The notes beneath the pieces are model-generated. The model was not told the origin of the DNA and did not search any database. It was given only the letters and a program-made list of their open reading frames with translations. From a virus, in the IMG/VR virus record IMGVR_UViG_3300009151_003179, positions 106,964-170,963 of that record: a stretch of DNA of 64,000 nt; one strand, 5' to 3'. Positions 3,472 through 42,400 of the stretch are shown one piece after another; within the stretch, counting starts at the first letter, position 1; each line of letters begins with the position of its first letter. The position numbers were made by a program, and so were the translations under genes.

Positions 3472-4410
3472 TTATATACTATAATTTGAGGCGGCTAGTG
3501 CATATCTAGCAGTACCAACACCAGTAACGTCATTAGCAACTACACCGGTGTTTGATACTAGGTTAGTTATTGCTGTTACACTTGCAGGTGAAAGTATCCT
3601 TCCATATCCAAATATTGCAGTATCTAAACCATAACCTGCGGCTGCTAGAATATATCTAGCGGTACCAACACCAGATGTATTAGTTGCAACTACACCTGTA
3701 TTTGATACTTTATTGGTTATTGAAACATTTGGATTTCCACCATAACCAAAAATAGCTTTATCTGTGCCATAAGTTGCGGCTGCTAATTGAGTTCTGGCAG
3801 TACCAACACCTGCAGTATCAGTAGCAACTACACCGGTATTACTTACTAGATTGGTTATTGAAACTGGACCAACTGCGCCGTCTTCTCCAAATCCAAAAAT
3901 TGCTTTATCTGTACCATAACCTGCGGCTGCTAGTGCATATCTAGCAGTACCAACACCGGAAACGTCGGTGGAGACTACACCTGTGTTACTTACTAGGTTA
4001 GTTACTGCTGAGTAGGAGTAGGTATATCCATATCCAAATATAGCTTTATCAGTACCATAACCTGCCGCTCCTAGTTGACTTCTAGCAGTCCCTACTCCCG
4101 TAGTATCTGTAGCAACTACCCCTGTATTACTTACTAAATTGGTCATTGATACAAGTCCGGAGTTGTTAAATCCATATCCAAATAGTGCTTTATCAGTACC
4201 ATAGCCCGCTGCCGCTAGTTCATCTCTAGCAGTACCGACTCCTGTTGTATCGGTTGCAACAACCCCAGTGTTACTTACTAGATTAGTTATTGATATATAT
4301 GATGGGCTGGAATATCCATATCCAAAGATTGCTTTATAAGAGGGTGGGGGAGGTGCTGTAATTGCAAATCCACCACTGAAATTTACACCTGAAAAAATTA
4401 TGTCTGCCAT
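3472..4410 (-). CDS. Fibre-like protein with six tandem repeats
   Basis: 312 residues. After a short lead (MADIIFSGVNFSGG...) and a Pro run, the protein consists of six repeats of about 45-50 residues. Each starts with YGTDKAIFGYG or a variant and ends with SNTGVVATDTTGVGTAR. The middle of each repeat varies in length and sequence while the flanks are nearly invariant. This is the pattern of repetitive tail-fibre or receptor-contact proteins, and six repeats would fit a six-bladed beta-propeller, though the fold is an inference. No enzymatic motif is seen. The gene has its own late promoter at 4430-4437 and a leader that begins with the ribosome site AAGGAT. It is separated from the tmRNA by a strong terminator. 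Confidence 0.7.
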   Translation of the reverse strand: MADIIFSGVNFSGGFAITAPPPPSYKAIFGYGYSSPSYISITNLVSNTGVVATDTTGVGTARDELAAAGYGTDKALFGYGFNNSGLVSMTNLVSNTGVVATDTTGVGTARSQLGAAGYGTDKAIFGYGYTYSYSAVTNLVSNTGVVSTDVSGVGTARYALAAAGYGTDKAIFGFGEDGAVGPVSITNLVSNTGVVATDTAGVGTARTQLAAATYGTDKAIFGYGGNPNVSITNKVSNTGVVATNTSGVGTARYILAAAGYGLDTAIFGYGRILSPASVTAITNLVSNTGVVANDVTGVGTARYALAASNYSI

Positions 4411-4429
4411 ACTATATTATCCTTTAATG

Positions 4430-4437
4430 TATTTATC
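4430..4437 (-). promoter_or_regulatory. T4-type late promoter (GATAAATA)
   Basis: GATAAATA on the minus strand, 19 bases before the ATG at 4410. The predicted start near 4424 gives a 14-base leader beginning AAGGAT. It directly follows the U-tract of the tmRNA terminator, so one transcript ends exactly where the next begins. Confidence 0.7.
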
Positions 4438-4466
4438 AAAAAGAATAGGCTCCGAAGAGCCTATTC
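4438..4466 (-). terminator. Rho-independent terminator with UUCG loop
   Basis: On the minus strand a perfect 10-bp stem (GAATAGGCTC / GAGCCTATTC) closes a C(UUCG)G tetraloop and is followed by five Ts. It lies just after the coding piece of the tmRNA and is the strongest intrinsic terminator in the window. Confidence 0.9.
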
Positions 4467-4810
4467 TGCTATTTTCTGTTACGAGGGATAACTCCCCTAG
4501 CTGCCTTTATCAGGCCGCAATGCTAAACTGTGAGTCGTTTGCGGTTACTTTTTTTGCTTCTACGACCGGGTTGCCCCAATCCTACGGCTTCTGCTTTGCC
4601 GAGCTGTCCACTCTGTTACTTGTTGCCCTGTCGAAACTTTTCAGGCCCATCATAAAAAGAATATTAAAAAAACCAAAATAATAACACTCAATATTCCACA
4701 TGTATATTGATATTTTACTTCAGGATCCATATTGTCTCCTTATGGTGGACCTGGGGAGATTCGCACTCCCGTCCAGAACACCTTTCCCGTTACTTCATAC
4801 AGCAATAACT
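4467..4810 (-). ncRNA. ssrA: Circularly permuted (two-piece) tmRNA
   Basis: Read on the minus strand, the part that is normally the 3' end comes first. It has a T-arm (GGGAG / CTCCC around loop TGCGAAT, 4754-4770), then CAGGTCC, A and an encoded CCA (4743-4753). An AT-rich spacer of about 95 bases follows (4649-4742). Then comes the normally 5' part: GGGCCTG (4642-4648), a tmRNA-like TTTCGACAGGG segment, and the tag reading frame. GGGCCTG pairs with CAGGTCC over seven positions, with G-U at the third pair, the alanine identity element. The tag reads ANDSQFSIAA and ends in tandem stops TGA TAA. The wording around the resume codon (CGCAAACGAC) and the 3' part (GGACGGGAG...CTCCCCAGGTCCACCA) closely resemble E. 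coli ssrA. The mature RNA should be two pieces after spacer removal, rescuing stalled ribosomes. The 5' boundary (about 4808) is approximate. One oddity: T-loop position 55 is G, not U. Confidence 0.88.
4510..4542 (-). other. tmRNA proteolysis-tag reading frame
   Basis: The resume codon GCA at 4540-4542 opens an 11-codon frame encoding ANDSQFSIAA, then TGA followed in frame by TAA. Length, the AND start and the AA end match proteobacterial SsrA degrons (E. coli ANDENYALAA), so tagged proteins would be expected to be substrates of host ClpXP-type proteases. The sequence upstream in this frame (AAA AAA GTA ACC) is also open but is read as the pre-resume segment by alignment with E. coli. Confidence 0.85.
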
Positions 4811-7800
4811 TCAATTGTATTTAGCATTGAAATACTTTTTTAACCAAGGCCAATCATAACTTAGACGCAATTTGCCTAACTCACCATTGACTTGTTCAAC
4901 ATATTCTACAGCATGTTTTGCACCATCGATACTATATTGGGCATAGTCACCCTCACCCACAGTTGACCATATCTTTAATCGTTGTTTGCTATCAGGACTA
5001 TCATCTAGTTTTAACTTGATAACTTCACGGAAACTGGTACGCCATGTACTAAATTCATCAGTGTTATATCGTGCTACACCCGAATTAATCTCTACAACTT
5101 CATGCTCATTGTCTAATGTAAAGTCCAAACCTTTACCCATATTACTTAACGTAATCTGTTTATGGTATGCAATCATAGCTTGGTGACCATACACTAATCC
5201 ATTTACAGGGTTACTTGCGTAGAAGATATAATGTTTAGGTATCTGTAATCTATCTGGTTGCCATGTAAAATCAAATTTACTATTGATACGTAACTTAGCA
5301 AACACTGTAAACATCCAAGGTGTTTCACTAGCTGTTGCGGCTGCATGATAAGCCTGAACACGACCATTTACACCATCAACACGAACAACACGATTAGGCA
5401 ATCCTTTAGTCACGTTTAGTAAGTGTTCATAGTTCTCATCAGCTCCAACTTCACCGTTGCTAAGGAAAACTATATCCAGTGGCTTAGACTGTATTAGTTT
5501 ATCAGCTTTACTGATGTATGGATAATCATACAACTCTTTCTTAACATATTCTTTAGCTTCTTTCGGCACAATAATACGTGTGCCACCGGTAGTAGTAATT
5601 AATATGTTTTTAGATTCTTTAGACCATAAACTTATTGGTTCATTGTCAACAACTTTTATTTCTTTGTTGTCTTCCGTGACAAACGTAGCATAAGGCCAAT
5701 TAAAATCAGTATTAGTAATAGAGACATGTGTATCGCTTTCAGTTATAAAGTTTGGAGCAGGTAAACGCTTTACTCTTTGATGTTGGTTAAAGTTAATTTT
5801 CTCAATTTTTTCTAAATTATCTAATTCTTCTATCAGCATACGTAATTTATTGACATTGATAAAGAATGTATCACCAAACTTTTGCAAGTTACTAGGGAAT
5901 ACATGCAATTGTTCCAGTGAAAACGGATCACATATGTATGTAAAATCAAAATTAGTATAGTCACATATAGAACTACATACCCAAACATAATGTTCTTTTT
6001 TAATACCTAACTCATACAACATATTTTTTAATGTAGTTAGGTAATCATTATCATATTTAATAACTTCAACATTCTTTTTAGTTTTATTTTCTAATAATGA
6101 TGTAATATTATCAGTAGTATCATTACCGTAATCAATCAAATAAACGTCATACAAGCAGTTACTAGCGACCGCTCGCTTTGTTTTTACAAAGTTAAGATTA
6201 CTTAAATGTTCTATAATTTTAATATGTTTAGTATCTTCTATGAATGTTTCTTTATTGACCATAAAGGTAGTTCCCCAATGGCTCCATTGTGTTCCAAATA
6301 TATGAACCATTTTCATTTGCCATGGGCTAGGATAATAGTCAAATGTAAAATTTGTATAATCTAATTCACTATTCAGTATCCAACATACTTCAGTTTCAGA
6401 CTTGTTAAGACAACGATTAATAGTATCAACCCAGCTATTTAAATAACGTGTTTTTTGTATTTTTGGATAGCGTTGTTTTAATTCTTCGAATCTTTGTTGG
6501 CTTTCATTGTTGTTCTTATCAACAAAAAACATTGATAGGTTACTGTCGATTTCCACTGTTTGTTCTTCAACATAGTTAAATTCTCTATGACCCATAGTGT
6601 ATAATGGTCCGTTAACATAATAAGTTTGTGTGTTCTTACTATATTCGTTACCAAATACATTTATGTGCCTAAAGTTTTCACTATTTGGTCTCCAGTTAAA
6701 ATCAAATTTATCATAATTTAAGTCAGGGTTGATGACCCAAAATACTTCATCCGGATGTTCTGCAATCAAATCCTCAAGTGTTGTTTTAAGTTTATAACGA
6801 TTAACTGTATTACGGTTTGTAGTAATTGTAGTTTCTGTTCGTTCCATCAACACAACTTCAGTTGCGCCTGGCACAGTGTATCTAGGACCATTATCTGCCC
6901 ACTGGTAAATTTGAGGAGGACTATGTGGATTAGGTCTCCAACTAAAATCAAATGTATTGTAATCGTCTACATTACTCACATGCCAATTTTTTAATTCTGG
7001 TTTAGTAATAGCAACAATGCTTTTAACATATTTTCGTTCTGATGCCCCATAAGTCCAATATTCTACTGTAGGTTCTACTGTAGCGTCATTCCATTTGTTA
7101 CCAAAAACATATACATATGGTGGACTTTTGGGATCAGGTCTCCATGAATAATCAAAATTGTCAACAGGTATTACTACTAGCCACTTGTTCATATCAGGTA
7201 ATGTAGTTGCTACTACATCATCCATATATTTAAATTCAGTAGCACCTGGACAAGTGTAAGTGATAGTAGGTTCACGTACAGCATCGTTATATTTGTTACC
7301 CCATACATAGATATACGCAGGTTCACGCGGATCAGGTCTCCAGCTAAAATCAAATGAAGATTTATCAACTGGTATAAGAGTTTCCCATCTATTAAGCTGT
7401 GGCTTTACATCAACTATACCTACATATTTGCGTTCTGTTGCACCTGGTACATGATATTCTAATGTAGGTTCTACTTCTGCCGGAACATATTTGTTTCCCC
7501 ATGTATATATGTAGGGTTTTTCAGTCTCATCGGGATGCCAACTAAGTTGGTCTTCTACTACAGCCTGATGTATAACCCAATTATCCTTTGTAGGCAGTGC
7601 TTTTGCTCTGGTTGCGTCAATATATTTTACAGCACTGTTCTCATTTACACCGTCTGCATAATATACAGGGCCGCCCGTCTTTTGCCATTGTGTTCCAAAT
7701 TTATATATGTATGGTATATCTTCGATATCAGGATGCCAACTAAAATCAAACTCGGATGTGTCAATACTATCCGGTGTGAACCAACTTGCCATGATATTAT

Positions 7801-27404: not shown

Positions 27405-30400
27405 TCAGGGAACATCGGCATTTAAGAAATTAGCAGGATATGTTGTGCTAATCTGTAAAGGATCACCGTCTACTAGGTTATAGTTGAACGAATTCCAACT
27501 AAATCCGTTATAAACATCAGGTAACACATTTGACGATAATATCCCGTAAACTGTCGTAAATTTAGGAATATATGTTAGTTTTCCGGTACCATTTGCACCA
27601 CGTTGCAATCCAGATAAAGTATTCTCATCAAAATTGACAGTGGTGTAACGTATTTGCTCACCGTTAATATAAATTAAATTACCCAATATTACTGTTACAG
27701 TTAAATTATTCCCTACAATAATTGAAGGACTAGTTGGATCTATATCTATTACTAATACTGGAGCTGTATTCTCTATTACAATACGATATTCTGCAGGATC
27801 AACTAACAAACTTGAGGTATTATTATATACAATAACTTCTGAAATTGTATTCTTATCACCATTGAGTCCTATACTCATTGTATCATCAACTACTACAGGA
27901 GCAGTTTCATTTTGTACAATAGACGCTGTAACTCTGGATACATCTTCTAAATAAATCACATCATCTATATCTTGCAATCCATATGTTAGCCAAGTTCTAG
28001 TTAATGAATTAGAACGGAATATTGATTGTTCATTAGACCTGTTAACATTTTCAATATACACAGTTTCATTAGGTGTAGCAGTTGGTATCATATTTGTAAT
28101 GGTTACTATATCGCCCGGTTGTATAACAGTTAATATACTTAAGTTATTTTGTGGGTTTAGATATAAAGCACTTGATGGGACACGTTTTCCATTTACAGTT
28201 ACCCATAATCTATCAACATTAGTTTGTTCCCACAGTGATACATTCATTGAACCTGTACCAGTTGTTAGTGGGTAAACTGCACCATTACGTACCGCAGTTA
28301 CATTAAATTCATATACACCGATTAAATCATTTACATAATATATAGCTGTAGCAATACCATTACCAAATCCCACACCTGTTGCAACAAATGTAGTTCCTGG
28401 ATCGTTACTTAATGAACCAATACTAGTCCAAAATGTAGTGCCAGTTTCAATAATTTGATAAGTGTTTCCTACAATAAAGCTTCCGGCTGTTACTTGAGAT
28501 TGAATTCCACCAAACACTGTTCCGGTAAACAATACCGGTGTACCGAGTATTAACTGCCTGTTGCTTGATACTGTTATAGCATTATTCAATGTAGTTGTAG
28601 CGGACGCATTAGTTGTTTCTAATGTGAATATTCTATCAAACCAAACATATCCATTTCCTAAATAAGTAGATACTTGTGTTACTGGGTCATTAACATAATA
28701 CAATGTAGGATTGTATGGAGTAAAGTATAGCCCAATTTGTGTAGGATTAATTACTTTTGCATAATATGTATTGTTGTTTAATTCAATTGATCCTAATACA
28801 CCATTGATTCTTACAATATCATTTTCAACCAAGTTGTGTGGTACACCAGTTGTTATTGTGACTGAATTATTTCCACCAACAGACGCAACCATCAAACCAG
28901 TATCTGTTGTCAATTCAAGTGTAGGTCCTGCTACCCCTGCTACTAATGTTTCAGAAATAGTAAATGAGGTTAAATCTGCAACAGATTTAACATAGTATAC
29001 TGTTCCGTCTGCATTAATATTACCAAATCCAATTGGAGTAATATTTCTAAATATAACTGGTTGATTTAGTATGAATCCAGCTGTAGTGCCACATGTAATA
29101 ATATTAGTTGTATCTGTAGTATTGGTCACCGTAGTAACTGCTAATGGTTGATTAATTGAATTGTTGATAGCAGTTATATTAGCAACTGTAGGTGGATTAG
29201 TAATACCGGTCATTGATCCAGACTCTGTAATCAATGTTACGGGTATCCCACCTACATTTTCAGAAACTGCAAACGTAGTAGAATTAAAAATCTCTACAAT
29301 ATAATAAATTTGATTAGCAATAATACCACCTATAGTAGGATCATTGAATTTAATAGCGTCATTAACATTTATTGATGTAGTTGATCCTGAACCTAATGTC
29401 AAATAGTCTGGGCCGGGCGAATAGTAACCTATATCATAATTTAAATCATCAAATCCCGGCTCATGTGTAGCATTGCTAATTGTTAGTACAGTAGTAACTG
29501 ATCCGGTGAAGCTTCCAGCGTATATAGTATTTAAATATTGTCTATCAGTCAAATTATATGAAGTAACTGAAAGAATACTTCCTACAGTAGTAATAATTGT
29601 TAAACTAAGTGTATTAGTTGATGAATTAATTGTATAATCTTTATTATTTGTTAATCTCAATCCATTGTATTCAACAATTGCATTATCTGCATTATCCTGC
29701 CCCACAAAATTTGTTAATGCAAATTCTGTACTGGCGCTTGTTAATGTAAATATTTGTACTTCTGGTACAGTGTATCCATACTGTATAGGAGCTGTTTCCC
29801 CAAATATAGAAAGTACAACAAAGTCATCATTTTGATTATATTGACTAGAGAATACCAACTTTGCAGTAATACCTTGGTCAACAATTGTAATTGCATAATC
29901 ATTTGTCACACATAAAGCAATGCCGGATGCGTTATTCAATATAACGTCTGTGCCGGCTAAAGAGGACGATACTGTAAATTCATCTGTAAATTCATTATTA
30001 ATAATAGAAGTAATGTAATATGATTGTAATGGAATGATACCTGCCAACACTGTTCCAGTACCAGTACCGGTACCAGTAGCTGTAAATATAACTCCCACAG
30101 TATTAGATAATGCACCAATTGCCATGAAGTTAGTTGTCCCTACAGTTGCTATTTTATATAATTGACCTAGTACAAATGAACCAGCTGTTAGTGTGAAGTT
30201 GTTAAATGACATTGCATTACTGAATGTAATTGTATCATTTACTGCATAATTATCGGTCGAGTTAACAACAATGGTATTAGTTCCGCTATTAGTTTCAGAT
30301 ATTATACCTTGTTCACCTAATACAAGATTTGTACCATTGTGTATTACGATAGGATCTGTCCAAACTAATCCGTTTGTTGATTGAATATTAACTAACATTG

Positions 30401-33400
30401 AACCAGTAGCTGATGTAACATCAAATGCAGGACCTGCTATTCCACCTGGATTACTAGTAGATACAGTTATCTTGTTAGTAATATAGCTTATTGTTTTCAC
30501 ATAATATAGTGTATCTGTGGTTATGCCACCAAACACATCACCTTGGAATATGATTGATGAATTGACTACAAAGTAATCAACTGTTTCGCACACAATACCA
30601 TTGTCTAATGCATCTGTTTCAATTGCAATAACTTGTTTAGGATCAGTAGTTGGTCGTATTACACCGGAACCATTAAATCTACTAGCAGAATAATTACAAT
30701 TCAATGGCATTTCAACAAAACCAGTAATCATATTATCTATAAAAGGTATAGCTTGTGAGTTTGATTTTACTAGTTGGTCTCCGTTTCCTACTTCATATAA
30801 ATCTATTCTTAAACCATATGTTGAAGTTACGGGGTCACCTAAGGTAATTATTTTGTTAACCCAATCTACAGTAAAATCATATATTCTAACACTTAGATTA
30901 GTAGAGTAATCAATATCAAACAATGCCATACTAGCAGGATTTTCTACGATCCCATTGAATGAAAATTCAGTTTGATTTGTACTTGGAATTATTTCTGTAG
31001 AAACAACATTAAATCCAACATGACCGTATATAGATGCATTCCAATCAGTTCCCGGTCTAGTAGTAACAATCATTGTTAAATTATCAGATATTAGTCCTGG
31101 TACTAATTCTTCAGGGCCATATCCTGATAAGAAAGGATCACCTTGTACATCATATGCAGTATCTCCAACTGACTCAAAAGCTTTATCTTCTAAGTTAGTA
31201 TCTATCGTATATTGGTCTTCGGGTGCAAAAGCATTACCCAAATATGTTCCATTAGGATAAGTAATACCAGTAACTAGTTGAGTTAAATCTAAACCAGGCA
31301 TGTTAACTGTAGGTTGATAGTATCCAATGATACGATCCAACTCATTAAGTTGTCTATCACCACTATCCATTAGTTCCCATTTACCCAATATAAATTCGTT
31401 ATCATTGTTACTAATGATACATTGCCATACTTTGTTATTGTATTTTACAATACTTTGATTGAAGTAGAATGGCTCAGGCAAGAATACATAATCACCTAAT
31501 TGGTATTCTGTTTCTAATGTTATGCCATTTACCGGAACAGTCATTAATGAATCAGTGTATACTTCACATTCTGTTGCAGTAATAACTTTTAAATAATATT
31601 GATTTACTATACCTGCGGGAGTACCCGAACCAATTACACTTGTAATGTTTCCATCTGATTCTATTGGCAATAAGAAATTATTATCAGGCGAATAAATGAA
31701 ATTAGGATTAGCAATAATTACATCAATACCGGAAACTGTCAACACTAAATCATTTAATGGACTCGTTCCGCCTAAATCAGTACCAGAAATAGTAATAGTA
31801 TTATCAAATGTATAACCTGAACCCTGATTTACTACCTCTATAATGTATCCACCTAGTTTGTTACCAATGTTGAATGTTGGTGGCGAACTTGTATCCGGAG
31901 ATTGTGTAAATACTGTTTCTTTAATTTGATTAACTGTTATTGGTTCAACACTACCGCCTGAACTTGTACTCAGTGTGATATAAGGATTGTCTGCGGTTAG
32001 TGTCATTTGACCATTATCAGTTGTTAGTACAAGGTCACCTCCACCTATTGCATCAGTAATAGTAAATGAGTCACCACCTAAATCATAACTATTAATAAAA
32101 TATGTTACTAATTCAACTACATTACCAAAAACTGCGCCAGAGAACGATATTGGCATACCAATATAGAATCCAGTTGTTAGTGTTCCTGAGGCTAATGTGT
32201 ATTTGTTAGTAGATGAAGATGAGCTTGCAACTTCAACTGATATTGTTCCGTTAGATACTACATAGTATTCGGTACCAGCAGTCAATCCACCAATATTTTC
32301 AGACAATACAAACGGTAAGTTGTTATATATATTTGTTAGGCCACCACTTAGATATCTCAAATATAAATAATTACCATTACTTGTAGCGGCTACGGTATCT
32401 CTTGTTACTAGATTACCATTTGTACCAGTTACTTCAATATATGGTGTGTTATCTAACGTTAATGTTGGGTAGAATGTAAACAATTGACCAGTAACTTGCC
32501 CTGGACTTACTGGTAACCCAACATTCATAGTCATCGAACCTGTTGCAGTTGTTAATTGAACCGCAGTTGTTTGACTTGTCAATGTACAAGAACCTGAAGC
32601 AGTTGTCAACGGTACTGCGCCACCATTAATTACACTAGCAATGGTAATTGTTGTGCCAGAATCAACACTTCTAATATAGTACACTTGTCCTGCATTAATC
32701 CCACCAAAAGTAGTACCAATGAATATAATTGGATCATTTACATTTAATTCCAATGTTGAAGATACTGTAATTAAATTACCAGTAGCAGTAGTAGCAGTAA
32801 CAGATAGTATTAACGGATCAGCTTCAGTTGATATAGTGAATGTTTCAATATCAACAATAGTTATGATATAATATGTTTCATTATCAATGATTCCACCAAA
32901 CACACTGCCAACAAAGTATACTGGTAATCCAACATAGAACCCTGAAGTGCCTCCGGTACCAGTTGGTAATAACGGTGATGTTATAAAGTTAGATGTAGTT
33001 GCCGTTGCAGTTACATTTAATATACCAGGATAAGCAATAGTAACAATAGCAGTATTAGTTACTGCACCTGCATAACATGATAATCCGGCTACACTAATTG
33101 TTTCCGAATTCAATGTAAATGTACTACCACCCACTGTAGCAGAAATAGTAAATTCAGATTCACCAATGATAGAAGCTACATAATAAGTTGTATTATTTAC
33201 TAGATTGGTAGTACCTACCGCCCCGACAAACTTAATTGGCATTCCAATATAGAAACCAATAGTTGATCCAGATGCATTTGGTTCTTCACTACTATATGAT
33301 AATGTAATAATATTAGATGCAACTGTTTCACTTACTGTACGAACAAGTGAAGACCATTGTAATACTTGATTATTAGAAACATCTTGTATTTCAAATGTTG

Positions 33401-36400
33401 CACCTTGTGCGCTAGCTAATATATCAGTAATCGGTGGTTGTGTGGCTTCTAGGGTAATATTAGAACTAGCAATTTGTGTACTATTATTAAATACTCCGGC
33501 GTAGAAACTTCCATAGAAGTTATCAGGTGCCCAGTTAGTAACTCTTGACGTATAAGTTGTTCTATCAAATCTTAATTTAATATTATTTTCTCTAATAGGG
33601 GCAGAAGTAGATACACAGCTTGCTCTTGCACTAACTGCAATATTGTTATTATTACCAGATCCAACATTTGTAAATATTATTCGGTCACGGTCTTGTAACG
33701 CATCAGCATATGTTGTGTATAACGCAACTACATAGAATGGACTAGATTCTAATACTGCCAAATAATAATATTGACCATCATCTAATCCACCAATTGGAGT
33801 TGTATCTGTTCCTACATAATATTTTATTAAATCACCTGTTTGCACAAATTGTGTTTGTAAAGTAATTGTTCTACTAGTCAAATCTACAACCGTACTAGAG
33901 AATGTGATAATTTCACTTGGGTCAATTATTATCTCAGGCAATACTTGATATCCATCACCCGGATCAATTACATCAATTCTAAGAATTGTATCTAAATTCA
34001 TTACGGGCTGTAATATGGCTGCACGTCTTGGAGCCGGATATATAGCGGTATCAATATATGCGATAACCTTAGGAGGTTCAGCATAACCTCTACCACTATT
34101 CAATAATAAGATAGGAGGCAAATCAATTATAATTTGTTCACCTGGAATATGATTTGTTATAGGTGTATCATTAACACCACGTGTTAATCCACTCAAAGTG
34201 CTATAAGCTCTGTCAACACTGCTGTATGCAATTTCTTCAGTACCAATTAATACAACACCGGTTGTTGGGAAACCATATACATTGTCTACTACCATTGCAC
34301 TGCTATTCAATGATACAAAAGAAGATAGAATAGTTATTGGATAATTAGGTACTCCGGTTATACTTAAACCTTGATTGTTGAACCAATTAATATATGATTT
34401 ACTTTGCCATATAGGATCTGTAGGTAAATATTGATTGATACCACTTGGATTAGAATAAACTAACTCAGGTGTAATATACTGTTCATATTGAGTACTGTAT
34501 TCTGCTGGCAAATCAAAATCAGTTATATTTCCTAAATAATTGTCTGATCCTGTATACTTAAATAAGAAATCTTTAATAACAACATGATAAGGCTTAACCT
34601 CATTTAAATATCCAGATAAAAATTCTTGATTATCACTTTGAAATACTTCAAGTGGTAATAATTCACGAATGGTATGCCCTACATCAATAAATGATGTTTT
34701 ATTCAACCATGGTAAATAATTTTGACTTTCAATTGTTTCACTGACAATATATTCAAATAATAAAATCAATGCATCATTTCTATATTGTAACAAACTACTA
34801 GGTAATTCTTCATTCAATGCACGAATAATATAACGTGTTTCTTCACTAGGGAATGTATCATATGGTGTAGTATCAAAAAAGTTGTCACCAAATCCTAAAC
34901 GAGCATCAGCATAATCCCACAATGAACTATTAAATTCTATTGTGCCATTTTGTAAACCAATACGATTCCAATTTACACCATCATATACATAAGTTTCTTG
35001 TAACCCTTCACCATTTTTATTAACTGTGACAATTAATCCTAGTTGGGCATTGATTGTTGCTAAGTCATAATATGATTCTACAAGCAATGAGGCCCTAGTG
35101 TTATTATCATATCCCGGTGCCCACCAATTAATTACTTCCCAATAATCTTGTGTATTATAAAACAATAACGGAGTTCCTGGCCAATTGGGGTTATCTACAG
35201 TAGATGGGTTTATTTCCCCTTTAGTAAACAAGAATTTTAAACTACTAGTTTCTGTTAATGGATACTGTAACAATACTTCATTATAAAATTTTAAATAATT
35301 TTCTAATGCCTTAAATCTATTATAAAAGAAACTTTGACGTGGACGGGTTAATATACCACTCTGCACCGGTTTTGGTAAGTTAGGATCGGGAACAACTCCG
35401 CCGGTTCGATCCACACCACTAAAACTCTCTAACATTTTATTATACAATGATTCCGGTACTATGGTAGTACCTGTCCCAGGTAAACCGGGCAAGAAATCAT
35501 CTGCGTATTTTGAACGAATTAAACTGTACACACTATGTGATACATCATCATTTGTACCAGTTGCAAATCCAATATGTAACACTGTATCACTTGCATTAAT
35601 ATTAGATGCACAATTGTACAAACCAAATACATTTGGTTGTATTGGTGCCATATATGATATACCAGTTGCTAATGGGGTAGAAATATATGACTCACATATA
35701 GTATCTGATAGTGTTTTACCTATCTGATTGAATACAATATTTGTATTTCTTACCCAATAATAATATACAGGTACAATTGAACCAGTACTATTTAATCTAT
35801 ATTGAACTACATAATTCTCAAAGTTATTTGGTGTTCCAGGTCCCGGATAAGCAATAGGTTCAACATCACTTGTGATCCAACTACAAACTTTCACATCACT
35901 TCCTGGGAACACTCGGCCCCACCACACACTATTATAAACCACATCATTACTTTGATGATAGTTTACAAATTTTGTCGTAGATGTGTCAAACCATAACTTT
36001 CCTAATTCTCCCGGCCCCCATACAGCAGAGCCTTTATTTGTTGCGTCAGGACTATTATAATTTGCAGGGTCAGCATTAGATACTATATCTAAATTCTGTC
36101 GCACTGCACCTAATATTTTTCCTTGCAAGGGATCAATATAATCTAAATTGTCTAATGTATTATTTGTTGTTACACTGTATAATTGAGCATTTTGTATTGC
36201 ATCCGTATTAACAATAGGGGCAGAATTACGATACACAGACCAATCTGGATCGCCGGATGTATTATTGTATATCACAACTTGTCCATTGTCATATCCTGGT
36301 CTAAAATTAGGAGTACCAATCATTACATAATTGTTGGTAAATTCTAATGCAGTTCCATAATATGGTTGGCTACCGTAGTCAACATTTAATGCATTAACAC

Positions 36401-39400
36401 TTTGTGCATATACGTAAGCGCCAGGATTATTTACAGTTTCATTGTATACTGACAAATAATCATACATATAGACTGCACCTGCATTAATAAAACTATCTAA
36501 AAACTGTGTTGTATTGTTATCAAACAGTGTATCATTGTTATAATTTTCATCATCACTTGCATCAAATGTAGTTTCTGCGTATCTAGCAGAAACAGGTGCA
36601 CTTACCACAAATGAACCTGCTGAATTGAATTTAATTGTATGACCAAATTCTGTTCTACCCTGGCTGTGCGGATCATTAATCAATTGCGTTTGTGTATATA
36701 TTTTTATACCTAATTGGTCTAATACATCTGCATTTAATACTGATAATGTTAACTTAGCATTGATATATGCCAAATCTATACTAATAACTTGTATGGTTAA
36801 AATATTATCGATTGATGCTGAAGCAGTAACATTTGTAATATTTGCCGCGGCAATTGTATTGGCTACAGTTGTTGCGTTGCCTACAGGTAATGACACTGAA
36901 TAACCATTAAGTAAAATAGTTGCCGGTTCAGTTAGATTACATTCAGCATAACCAGTTATTATACCGTAACTACCGCCACCATATGTATAACGATATACTG
37001 CACCTTCTTGATTTTTATTGTTTATTTCAAAAGGAGCACCTATTAGTATTTCATTTGCATAAGTATCTACGGCTAAACTGTAACCAAAGTTTGTTCCAAC
37101 TTCTGGATTAGAATCCATTGAAGTAAATTCTTGCGTTAATATAAATTCTGATCCACTAACATTTATAATATCACCTGCTGTTAATGAGCTATAGATGCTT
37201 ATACTTGATGTAGATACAGCGTATTCATTATCATCAATTAATGTACCATTAACACTAACAAAGATAGGTTCATCCTGTGCAACCATTGTCATATTACCGG
37301 ATGAGTTATTCAAAGTTACGGTTGAGCCATTTCTAGTCAATGATAGTGTTACAGTAGAACCAATAATTGTTTTGATATAATAAACTTGATTTAATGCTAC
37401 ATTACCATATACATTCCCTGTAAATATTACAGGTGTTCCGTTTACACCTGCAATTAAACCAGTAACATTATTTAATGTGATAGCATTACTTAATATACTT
37501 GATGCAGTTTTTAACAGAATAGTTGGTTGATATATCAAAGTAAATATTTGTGGAGTATCAGGGAAGCTATTATAAGGAGCTTCAAATGTTTGCACTAATC
37601 TTTCAAAAGAATATGCATAACCCAAATCATCAACACCGCTATCTTGGTAAGGTGCACTTATAATAATATTATTTCCATAATAATTAGTAGAAATAGAATA
37701 TCCAAAATTATCACCACCATTTGATACGGTGCCAGTACCTGATTGTGTTGAAGCATTACAAGTAAATTTTATTCCTACTGTATTAGATGATGCTCCTAAT
37801 GCCACAAAGTCAGTAGTGCCTAAAGATTCTATAACGTATATTCCACCTACATTTAAATTACCAACACCAATGATGTCCGGAGTATTAATGATATTTGAAT
37901 ATTCATATTGGCCGGTAAGTTGAGATTTACGATAAACATAAACTAAATTTTGGTCAGATGCAGAAATATACAACCAATTTTGATCTCCGGACAATGCGAC
38001 AGATGAGCCCCAGTTAACTACAGAATTATTGCTAGGTGATTCGATCACTTGATATTCTTGTAATTCATTTATTAACTTATTAATAACTAAATCATAGATA
38101 TATACTTTTCTGTCAGAATAAGATGCACCGGTTGGTTGTGATATTACAAATAAATTATCTGTATAAGAAATAGTAGAACCAAAAGAATTACCATTAGTTA
38201 TTGTTTGTACAATACTAAATGAATTAAACACAGGACTATATGAATAACGATATGCGGCTCCAACTTCAGCATCAGTAACTAAGTATCCTAAATTAGGAGT
38301 AATTGCAACTGCACTACCATATGTTATTGATTCAGTTTTAAATAACTCATCCTCATAAACATAGTTTAAACTCTTGCGATATACAGCCCAAGAGCCGTCA
38401 TTGTTTTCATCTACCCATACTTTATTTTTTACAAATTCACTGTCAAGTAATGGCAATGTATTAATATCTTTAGGTGTCGCAACACGTTGTGATGAGAATT
38501 TAAAAGCTACACCTTGACCAAGAATTGTAGTTACAGACGGTGATAAACTTAATAATATTGTTACTCTAAAATTATCAACAACACTTGAAACAATTCTGTA
38601 ACCATTAACACTATCATTAAAATTAATAATAGCAAATGGTTGATACTTAGTTAAATCATGAGGTGTAGCAAATTGCACAGTTACTGTACCATTCATATTA
38701 TTAACAGCACCTATTACTTGACCAGCACTAGATGGAGTATATACTTGCCATGTACTAAGGTAATCTGCTAACCATACATATTCATTTACGTATAATTTAG
38801 AAAGTGGTGTAACCGCAGTATTCAACCCATTATAATAATATGCTGAAATTTTTACATCATTAAAATTAACGTATCCAGCATCCGGGAACACTGTGTTTGG
38901 AGTATCAGATGGTAATGTAGGCAATACATTAGGGTTATTGATAGGTCTACCATAATTGAATATTGAATATAGAGGAACTTCTTGCTGTACTCCATCAGTA
39001 TATACACCGTTAGTTAAGCCAACAATACTAGGATTACTTGTTAGTAAATTTTGATTCAAACGGAAATCTACAAAGTTATTGTTTAGTACACCACCAAACT
39101 CTCCAGTCTTAATGGCCCAGTTATCATAGATATCATAATCAATTCCACCTTGTGGTAATGCTAATCCTTTAAAATTATTTGCCGCAACTCTTGTGCCTTT
39201 TTCTTTAATAAGATTCTTATAAACATTGACTTGTGTTATATCTGTTAGGTCAGCAAGTGCAAGATAATCACGTGGTCTATATCCAATCAATGACCAACTT
39301 AACAAATCACTATCTTGGTCTAAATTACCTTTATTTGTATCATAAAATAGTGTACTTTCATATGAACGTGTGGAACTATTAGGTAACAATCCCTTTTGAA

Positions 39401-42400
39401 TTTCATTATAATCTGTTACTTTCCAATCTTGTTCTTCAAATATTTCTTTTGCATTTAATACTTTTAATGCAAACCAATATCTATTTTTATACCTAACGAT
39501 ACTGCCACGAGTATATTTTGAATTAGTACTCCATTCTTCTATGTTATCTTGATTTAAAACAAACCCCTGTGCATCAACAGTACCGTTCCATTCAGCAGAT
39601 TTTGTACCTCTGGTTAAAATACGATTTTGTCTTAGTCCGGTAGTCAAATTATATAAAACATCATTAAACACTGTTACGTTATCAAAAACAATACCATGCT
39701 CAAAGTTACTGATATTAAATTGACCATATGCAACAGTATCGCCTTCATTTAGTGGTCTAGCACTAAAGAATGTGCTATCACGATTAATAGACAAATCTAC
39801 ACTTTGTATCGGATAGAAATTTTGATTTAATATAAAGTTTTGTTTTTGTAGTGTCAATGGTTGTACAACATGACTATCTTTATTGATTGTAATTAAATTA
39901 GCGGCTGGATTTAAATTAACTAAACTACCTACTTCCCAACCAGATTGTGACCAATATAATAATTCAGTAATCATTTGACGCCAGTTAACATCTATACCAG
40001 ATTCAATTTGGTCAAATAATACACCTTCAGTTAATAAAAATTGACCGTAACTGGCAACAAATTGACTTAATGATTGTATATCAACAAATTCTGTACCATA
40101 AGGAATTATATTAGTTTTTGTTTCAGTATAATCATTTGAAATTTGTACTGAAATGTCACCTACGGTGATTTTGTTATAGTTACCATTAATTTTAGGTGTT
40201 ACTGTTGTAAAATAAGCCGTGTCTTGTGAATTACCAAAGACTTTCCAACCTGTACTTGTACTTTGTACAATTATACCACTGTATATAATAGTAGTTGTAG
40301 GTATGTTGTCATACAATAGTACACTATAACTTTCATCAGGAATTAACAATGACGCATTTCTACTGTTTGGTGTTCCTTTTTCTACATAGAATCCAAGCAA
40401 ACTCTTATCACTAAATCCAGCAAGTCTATAAATTAACCTTACATCTAAATTATCAAACAAATCAGTAATGTTCTGTGTTGCATTAACACCAACTTGTTTT
40501 TCGTAATCAACAATCCAATTAACATAACTTGTCTTAGCAGTACCAGTACCATATATGGCAACATCACTGATAATCAAATGACTACGATTATTTACTAGAT
40601 ACTGATTAAACTCAGTACTATATTTGTAATTGTCTACATCAAACCCTAAGTTAAAAAATTGAGCAGGTTTAGTAAGGGCAAGAATCTTCATTAAATCAAA
40701 CGGCCAACTACTACTTCTACGATAACTAAATTCTGCAGGGCCAACATCGCCAACTACCCAATCATTACGGAAAGTTCGTTGACTATAATTACCCATGACA
40801 GCATCGAACGGTGATAACAAATTGCCGGCACTGTCTACTGGTATAACTTGTAACAATTCTTCTCTAATAAATTCAGGTAACACAATTGGATTACCGTTAT
40901 TCCAATTAATACCCGCAGACATATCTCCCCATAATATTAAGTTATCACTTGTATAAGGAGCAGGACCGTATCTATTAGTCCACCAACTAGGTTCATCAGT
41001 AAAGCCAATCATTTCCCATGGACTTATATTTGGAGTGCTAGTATCGTAAAAATATTCATATATACCTCTCCAAAAACCTTGTTCAAATGCTTGACCATTA
41101 ATCTTATTACCTGATTGATTATAGTTGTAACTATACTGGTCAGTTGATTGATAAAACTGTTTTTTGTATTCAATACGATTTTGTCCAACCCAGTTTAAAA
41201 AATACTGGCTATATATTTGTAATACTTCATCATATGAATAATCTGTAGTTCTAAAGAATCCAGGTATTACATCATATTTGCTTACTGGAATTAAATCTGA
41301 CAATTTTAAATTATTGTAAATTCTAGTCTCAAACTCTAATAGTGCTTGATCCTTAAAATCAACTAAATATCCATCAATGTAATCACCATACAACTTAGTA
41401 TAAGAACCATCGTGACCTAATATAAAATATGTAGGTTGTGAGTAATTAGGATCTAGTACAACGCCGGGTATAAATGAGGGATATAAACCTAACTTAGTTG
41501 GTGTATTAGGTATATAACTTCCAAATGTTTGATTGTATTCTCTAATAGTTACAATATCCCCTGGTAATAAATCTTTTGTAATAGTTAGTGATGGACTATC
41601 TGTACTTACTATATAATCTTGGTTAATTATTAATTGAATAGTTGAAGTAAAATTATTAACCGTAGTTGTCAAATAAACCAATACACCATAATAATTAGCA
41701 GTGTCAAAATTATATATGCGTGTTAATGGATAGATACTTACATCTAAAGAATTAGCAAAGGTGTATATATTTGTAGCATATGCTGATTTGTTTGGCAACA
41801 TATCACTCCAGAAAAAAGGTTCTGAATCAGTTTTATTCGCAGTAATTTGATCTAATGCATCATCTAATATAGTTGCCGGCGTTTGTCTTGTGGTAAAATC
41901 AGTTTTATCTATTGTATAAACCAACAATGATTTAAAATTTATATATTGTTGACTATTGTATTGTAATGAGTTAAACAAATTGTGATTTGGTGATCTTAAC
42001 AATGATCCTGGTAATGCCAATGAGGCACTGTTCTGAATAATTTTAGTACCCCATGGTACAAGATTTCCCAAATCTCTATAATTGTTTGAACCAAAAATAG
42101 TACCAGTTGTGTTTGGATTATTATAGAAAATACTTTGATACTGTCCGCGTATATCGCCTACATTTATTACAGTTACGTCATTATTGAATGGGTTATTTTG
42201 TAAGTTGATAGGTATTTGATAATATGCAGTAGCACTTACTTGGTCACTTAACAATGTTATTTCAACTACGGTATCAATTAATGGATTAGGTACTGTGAAA
42301 TTTACAATGGTAGAATTGTCTGTAATAGTAAAAGTGTAAGTTGCTGTATCTTGTAATACGTTATTAACATAGACTTGAATATTGGGCCATACTGTATTAG

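Follow-up and report, generated by a model that had tools for sequence, protein, structure and literature searches.

We find that the minus strand of the window, as we call the 64,000 nucleotides of viral DNA analysed here, encodes a circularly permuted tmRNA, probably one from a large tailed phage in which the spacer between the two tmRNA pieces is a protein gene and the precursor RNA doubles as an mRNA. The tmRNA itself is of a known kind; the new part is the spacer gene, which recurs among phage contigs.

A permuted tmRNA gene in a phage contig

ARAGORN calls one permuted tmRNA at 4419-4835 on the minus strand, with the tag ANDSQFSIAA and two stops, and two Rfam models match the same strand over their full length, in permuted order and above their cut-offs: RF04321 (tmRNA_permuted) at 4510-4804 (98.9 bits, cut-off 47, E 4.9e-18) and RF01850 (beta_tmRNA) at 4442-4844 (95.4 bits, cut-off 84). 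The minus strand at 4419-4844 is confirmed as a circularly permuted, beta-type tmRNA. The original prediction, which had placed a phage-encoded, permuted tmRNA at 4467-4810, was right in kind and fits the placement by ARAGORN and Rfam, and the details it had given are borne out: the acceptor strands GGGCCTG and CAGGTCC form a 7-bp stem with G-U as pair three, CCA is encoded, and the tag frame ANDSQFSIAA ends in small apolar residues followed by tandem stops. Along the minus strand, the 3' acceptor strand and CCA are followed by a 94-nt spacer, GGGCCTG, the tag frame and a terminator-like hairpin (Table 1). Two terminator-like hairpins lie in the region, counting both strands, against 0.9 expected from shuffles, and a promoter scan near the tmRNA gene found 6 against 3.5 expected.

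The window's source is an uncultivated contig, a virus record of 170,963 bases. The protein at 45101-48472 matches baseplate wedge proteins of jumbo phages such as Xanthomonas XaC1, Escherichia 121Q and Agrobacterium Atu_ph07 with 31-34% identity, and a record of 524,565 bases has an identical neighbouring protein together with a permuted tmRNA that equals the window's in score and tag. The original prediction further suggested that the phage may tag proteins to its own ends; a search of the window's record and two relatives, each possibly a fragment, turned up no SmpB. Within the structural region, 27405-45074 on the minus strand is one reading frame of 5889 codons. The 312-aa protein adjoining the tmRNA (3472-4410, minus strand) has many relatives, with 364 confirmed stretches in viral contigs, several of them in one record.

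Table 1 Features of the permuted tmRNA gene and its spacer in the window
Feature	Position	Strand	Basis
T-arm of the tRNA-like piece (GGAC and 5-bp stem, 7-nt loop)	4754..4774	-	sequence reading, exact match, inside the Rfam matches
3' acceptor strand CAGGTCC, discriminator A and encoded CCA	4743..4753	-	pairs with 4642-4648 over 7 positions
94-nt spacer separating the two pieces; its ends pair as closing stem	4649..4742	-	exact match, pairing analysis
Shine-Dalgarno (SD) AAGGAG; it and the U before it form the closing stem's 5' strand	4736..4741	-	pairing analysis
Putative spacer gene: ATG, 26 codons MDPEVKYQYTCGILSVIILVFLIFFL, stop TGA	4650..4730	-	homologs L704, L726, L727, L729, L730 in permuted tmRNAs
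Closing stem 3' strand CTTTTTA (4653-4659) and linker TGAT (4649-4652, holds the stop codon)	4649..4659	-	
5' acceptor strand GGGCCTG, where the tag-bearing piece starts	4642..4648	-	sequence, Rfam, exact match
Tag frame ANDSQFSIAA with tandem stops TGA TAA	4507..4542	-	ARAGORN, exact match
Terminator-like hairpin, 11 pairs, then T-run	4442..4467	-	terminator scan

A conserved reading frame fills the spacer

The SD AAGGAG and a 26-codon ORF that starts with ATG 5 nt downstream and covers 86% of the spacer were missed by the original prediction; its permuted phage tmRNA stands, whereas its inert AT-rich spacer gives way to comparative evidence for a protein-coding gene. The fit is close: UAAGGAG directly follows the CCA, so that the SD begins one base after it, AUG lies 12 nt in, and after the 26 codons UGA and a single U lead directly to the mature 5' piece. 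The peptide begins with polar residues and is hydrophobic from there on (Kyte-Doolittle maximum 3.25 over 15 residues), and judged by hydropathy alone it is probably a single-pass membrane microprotein.

Taken by itself the ORF is weak evidence, about 0.17 such ORFs being expected in two spacers from shuffles under a looser criterion. It is kept within permuted tmRNAs in three further distinct phage variants (L704, L729 and L730; in L730 the peptide is kept, yet the frame extends beyond the linker), while the L726 peptide is identical to that of L704 and L727, from the 524,565-base record, has the window's own. Across the four distinct members of this family, differences at codon positions 1, 2 and 3 number 21, 3 and 34, and pN/pS is 0.27, a value obtained from non-independent pairs and somewhat lowered because the search pattern for homologs fixed part of the first codons. 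Synonymous changes are favoured among these homologs, as in protein-coding sequence, and on this comparative evidence the window spacer appears to be a protein-coding gene.

The same pattern extends to other spacers. Ten spacer-ORF families have a pooled pN/pS of 0.27, the within-family pairs again being non-independent; the L114 family contributed one short pair because an out-of-frame ATG was taken. In 17 disjoint pairs, 49, 11 and 89 differences fall at codon positions 1, 2 and 3, with a third-position excess (p 3.9e-11) and a second-position deficit (p 4.6e-14). Judged by these substitutions, the spacer peptide sequence is under purifying selection.

Spacer genes exceed chance among viral contigs

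We scored a spacer of at least 60 nt as gene-bearing if an SD-led ORF of 15 or more codons covered at least 70% of it, and compared counts with 300 rounds of dinucleotide shuffles in which the first and last 8 nt were kept. All counts in this paragraph are among the matches listed. Two samples were blind to the spacer. Matches to the T-arm plus CCA (120 stretches, of which 91 were parsed into 89 distinct permuted spacers, 59 of them 60 nt or longer) gave genes in 7/59 spacers against a null mean of 0.74 (maximum 4), and matches to the window's T-arm variant (95 parsed, with 76 distinct spacers, 69 of them 60 nt or longer) gave 16/69 against 0.99 (maximum 4). SD, start and open frame together thus occur beyond chance across the class, and the gene is absent from most spacers of these samples (52/59 and 53/69). 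A 3'-junction sample, which is blind to SD and start and selects for the UUUAUGAU end (60 parsed, with 51 distinct spacers that carry the pattern, 46 of them 60 nt or longer), had genes in 30/46 spacers against 0.88 (maximum 5), or 12/24 against 0.29 once loci from earlier samples were removed. Under the looser criterion of 55% coverage, two samples selected for an SD and an ATG after the CCA (30 and 18 distinct spacers, loci from earlier samples excluded) gave 25/30 and 17/17 against 2.35 and 1.74.

The parser requires GGAC, a T-arm and NCCA, and other layouts are left out (L083, L084 and L086 are unparsed); the samples overlap in loci, and distinct means not identical, near copies being counted separately. 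Their union among the matches listed comprises 224 distinct spacers, 215 from viral and 9 from genome contigs, with 67 genes, all viral; 67/224 mixes blind and SD-selected samples and is not a prevalence. The shortest gene-bearing viral spacer among the matches listed has 81 nt.

Bacterial controls comprised 51 loci above the RF04321 cut-off, the one-piece L568 being excluded, and 47 were parsed (not L809, L817, L818 and L825; L824, L825 and L826 are without an ARAGORN tmRNA call). The beta-type spacers of these 47 are 5-49 nt long, none meets the ORF criterion, and many bacterial spacers are hairpins of the UAAG...CUUA type. On these 47 spacers we reject a layout derived from the host. In a separate bacterial pattern scan, no gene was found in any of the 9 distinct spacers, 4 of which reach 60 nt. 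Among named phages, Bacillus phage G has a one-piece tmRNA; at 10 further loci ARAGORN calls a permuted tmRNA in 9 (not L719), and none of the 9 spacers tested, L719 included, holds a gene, the spacer of L720 being unparsed and known only from the Rfam alignment. L083 and L086, from records with the same neighbouring gene family, keep a short hairpin of the UAAG...CUUA type with no ORF. The simplest history would be that cargo was inserted into the loop of this hairpin.

Diverse products occupy the same slot

At 40% identity the 67 genes among the matches listed fall into 26 clusters, 9 of them TM-like by hydropathy and 17 below the cut-off for TM-like; the largest, with 21 members including the window's, probably merges unrelated hydrophobic peptides. 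Pfam matches above cut-off identify an 84-aa thioredoxin (L424, E 4.1e-21), a CxxCxxCC protein (L153, E 1.3e-6) and a PGDYG protein (L370, E 3.4e-6). Rfam confirmed a permuted tmRNA at 13/13 loci tested, these three included, with 136 bits at L424. In 50/67 genes among the matches listed, the stop lies one base before the mature 5' piece. A relation of L426 to GNAT was dropped, its scores lying below the Pfam cut-offs. No homing endonuclease was matched among the 18 spacer peptides given to Pfam, and tblastn searches of named phages with a 52-aa and a 38-aa spacer peptide gave no match.

A second class is Oxidored-like (PF09791; E 2.5e-12 for the L193 peptide, two peptides tested), with seven similar members (L160, L193, L639, L652, L745, L761 and L764) at pN/pS 0.17. 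Here the spacer is without a start codon, and in 7/7 the frame continues without a stop, upstream across the T-arm, as far as an ATG within the acceptor piece. Either the precursor would have to serve as mRNA before it is processed, or translation would begin at a non-standard start.

Two further observations concern frames and tags at such loci. In L105, L163, L166 and L207, a common motif like EWSRLGMLGPLPPERN stands in one frame that runs through the spacer and both tmRNA flanks, and the frames of two of these four gave no Pfam match. Many aquatic phage tmRNAs have unusually long ARAGORN tags of 24-31 residues with recurring motifs such as ADTFDFSAMSFTGNTV (L161, L167, L192, L353, L358, L368, L371, L378, L461, L514 and others), and some of these may be misplaced resume codons.

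Pairing of the spacer ends takes in the Shine-Dalgarno

Pairing was analysed in 125 spacers of at least 45 nt among the matches listed, 5 of them from genome contigs. The two ends pair in a run of at least 6 pairs in 101/125, compared with 41 when partners are swapped; the best stem lies exactly four bases from the 5' piece in 98/125, and UGAU stands at the spacer end in 103/125. Where the spacer holds an ORF, the SD lies within the 5' strand of this closing stem and the usual stop is the UGA of UGAU. Median predicted SD accessibility (n=56 of 63 gene-bearing spacers among the matches listed) is 0.06 in the excised spacer, 0.00 in the local precursor and 0.82 when the last 12 nt are removed; the corresponding predictions for the window are 0.04, 0.00 and only 0.36. 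The SD masking may be a by-product, because the closing stem occurs in ORF-free spacers too. The position of the SD inside the closing stem suggests that translation and tmRNA maturation may compete, since the stem, which joins the halves, would have to be opened by any ribosome translating the ORF.

Discussion

The model that we favour is one in which a single precursor would be both the mRNA for a microprotein and the precursor of a tmRNA. The closing stem's 3' strand is transcribed only after SD and AUG, so that ribosomes could load. Stem closure would lower access to the SD and bring the acceptor strands together, and tRNA-type end processing would remove the spacer segment to give a two-piece tmRNA that, once mature, would work with host SmpB. 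Cutting of permuted tmRNA transcripts into two pieces by tRNA-processing enzymes is described in the available part of PMC11915505. The spacer slot would serve as a general cargo site. A bolder version, possible but rather doubtful, is that the pre-tmRNA is a dual-purpose switch by which the translation state of the host selects effector or tmRNA, and that the spacer is a standing site for diverse small-protein cargo. Ribosomes loading on the spacer gene would then make a phage effector and keep the precursor open; with few ribosomes, the stem would close and the rescue RNA would mature.

The closing stem and UGAU linker also occur in ORF-free spacers, roughly one in twelve end-kept shuffled spacers passes the looser criterion, and hydrophobic codons arise from T-rich sequence, all of which would suit a phage permuted tmRNA of the usual sort, whose AT-rich spacer is inert and whose ORF is a product of chance, aided by the stem-supplied UAAGG and the linker. 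We consider this very improbable: end-kept shuffles yield 0.74 and 0.99 genes where 7 and 16 were seen among the matches listed, most changes are at third codon positions, the window ORF has homologs, and a thioredoxin in the slot cannot be chance. At the level of the class, the counts above shuffles and the homologs of the window ORF lead us to reject it.

Two other readings grant the ORF a role. The spacer could be a type I toxin-like module, with the tmRNA a mere carrier of a membrane-active peptide whose SD is masked by end pairing and freed by RNA processing. Short hydrophobic peptides, and an SD that pairs with the segment's own 3' end, are what such a module would have, but soluble products occupy the same slot and 17/26 clusters among the matches listed are below the TM-like cut-off; we regard the module as unlikely, and it is just as unlikely that a released peptide would damage or lyse the cell. 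The frame could alternatively be regulatory in the manner of a leader, its translation opening or holding the stem and timing tmRNA maturation while the peptide itself is useless. Given that the amino-acid sequence is conserved and that entire domains, thioredoxin for one, are found among the products, we find this improbable too, even though SD and stem strand coincide and many products have just 22-26 residues.

As we read the field, what lies between the two pieces of a permuted tmRNA is generally treated as a spacer to be thrown away. If spacers encode proteins in many phages, they hold a set of small phage proteins unannotated so far, and one RNA would be both mRNA and rescue-RNA precursor. 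The question of why phages carry permuted tmRNAs would then turn to the tmRNA gene as a carrier, and perhaps a timer, of cargo genes. Our full-text literature search found no description of a protein gene in a tmRNA permutation spacer, although mention elsewhere is possible.

Phage-borne permuted tmRNA is not new, because it is already published (PMC9004378). The available part of that paper describes a two-piece tmRNA in phage Melnitz and counts, with ARAGORN, 53 two-piece tmRNAs among 133 unique tmRNA structures in phage genomes; that of PMC11915505 counts 79 phage tmRNA sequences, all forms together. The window's tmRNA shares piece order, acceptor stem, tag frame and phage carriage with the permuted tmRNAs of Melnitz, RF04321 and RF01850, and it differs from Melnitz in that its spacer holds a conserved SD-led protein gene; the part of PMC9004378 available has a predicted glutamine riboswitch in the ssrA gene and does not mention a spacer protein.

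Bacterial type I toxin mRNAs encode a short hydrophobic peptide behind a masked SD. They share with the spacer gene the short hydrophobic peptide and an SD that pairs with the RNA's own 3' end, whereas here soluble proteins also use the slot. Intron-form tmRNAs with homing endonuclease genes, as described in the available part of PMC11915505, likewise have a protein gene within a removable segment of the tmRNA gene; those segments are self-splicing group I introns with LAGLIDADG genes, whereas here the segment is the permutation spacer and would be removed by end processing, and Rfam at the gathering cut-off gives only tmRNA matches in the window and no group I intron with a homing endonuclease. 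Finally, the permuted tRNA genes of algae and archaea likewise have their halves in reversed order, with 1-74 bp between them that are cut out, possibly by RNase P and tRNase Z; the part of PMC3978253 available mentions no protein gene in that interval. The halves of such tRNAs are, on that account, ligated into one RNA, unlike those of a two-piece tmRNA.
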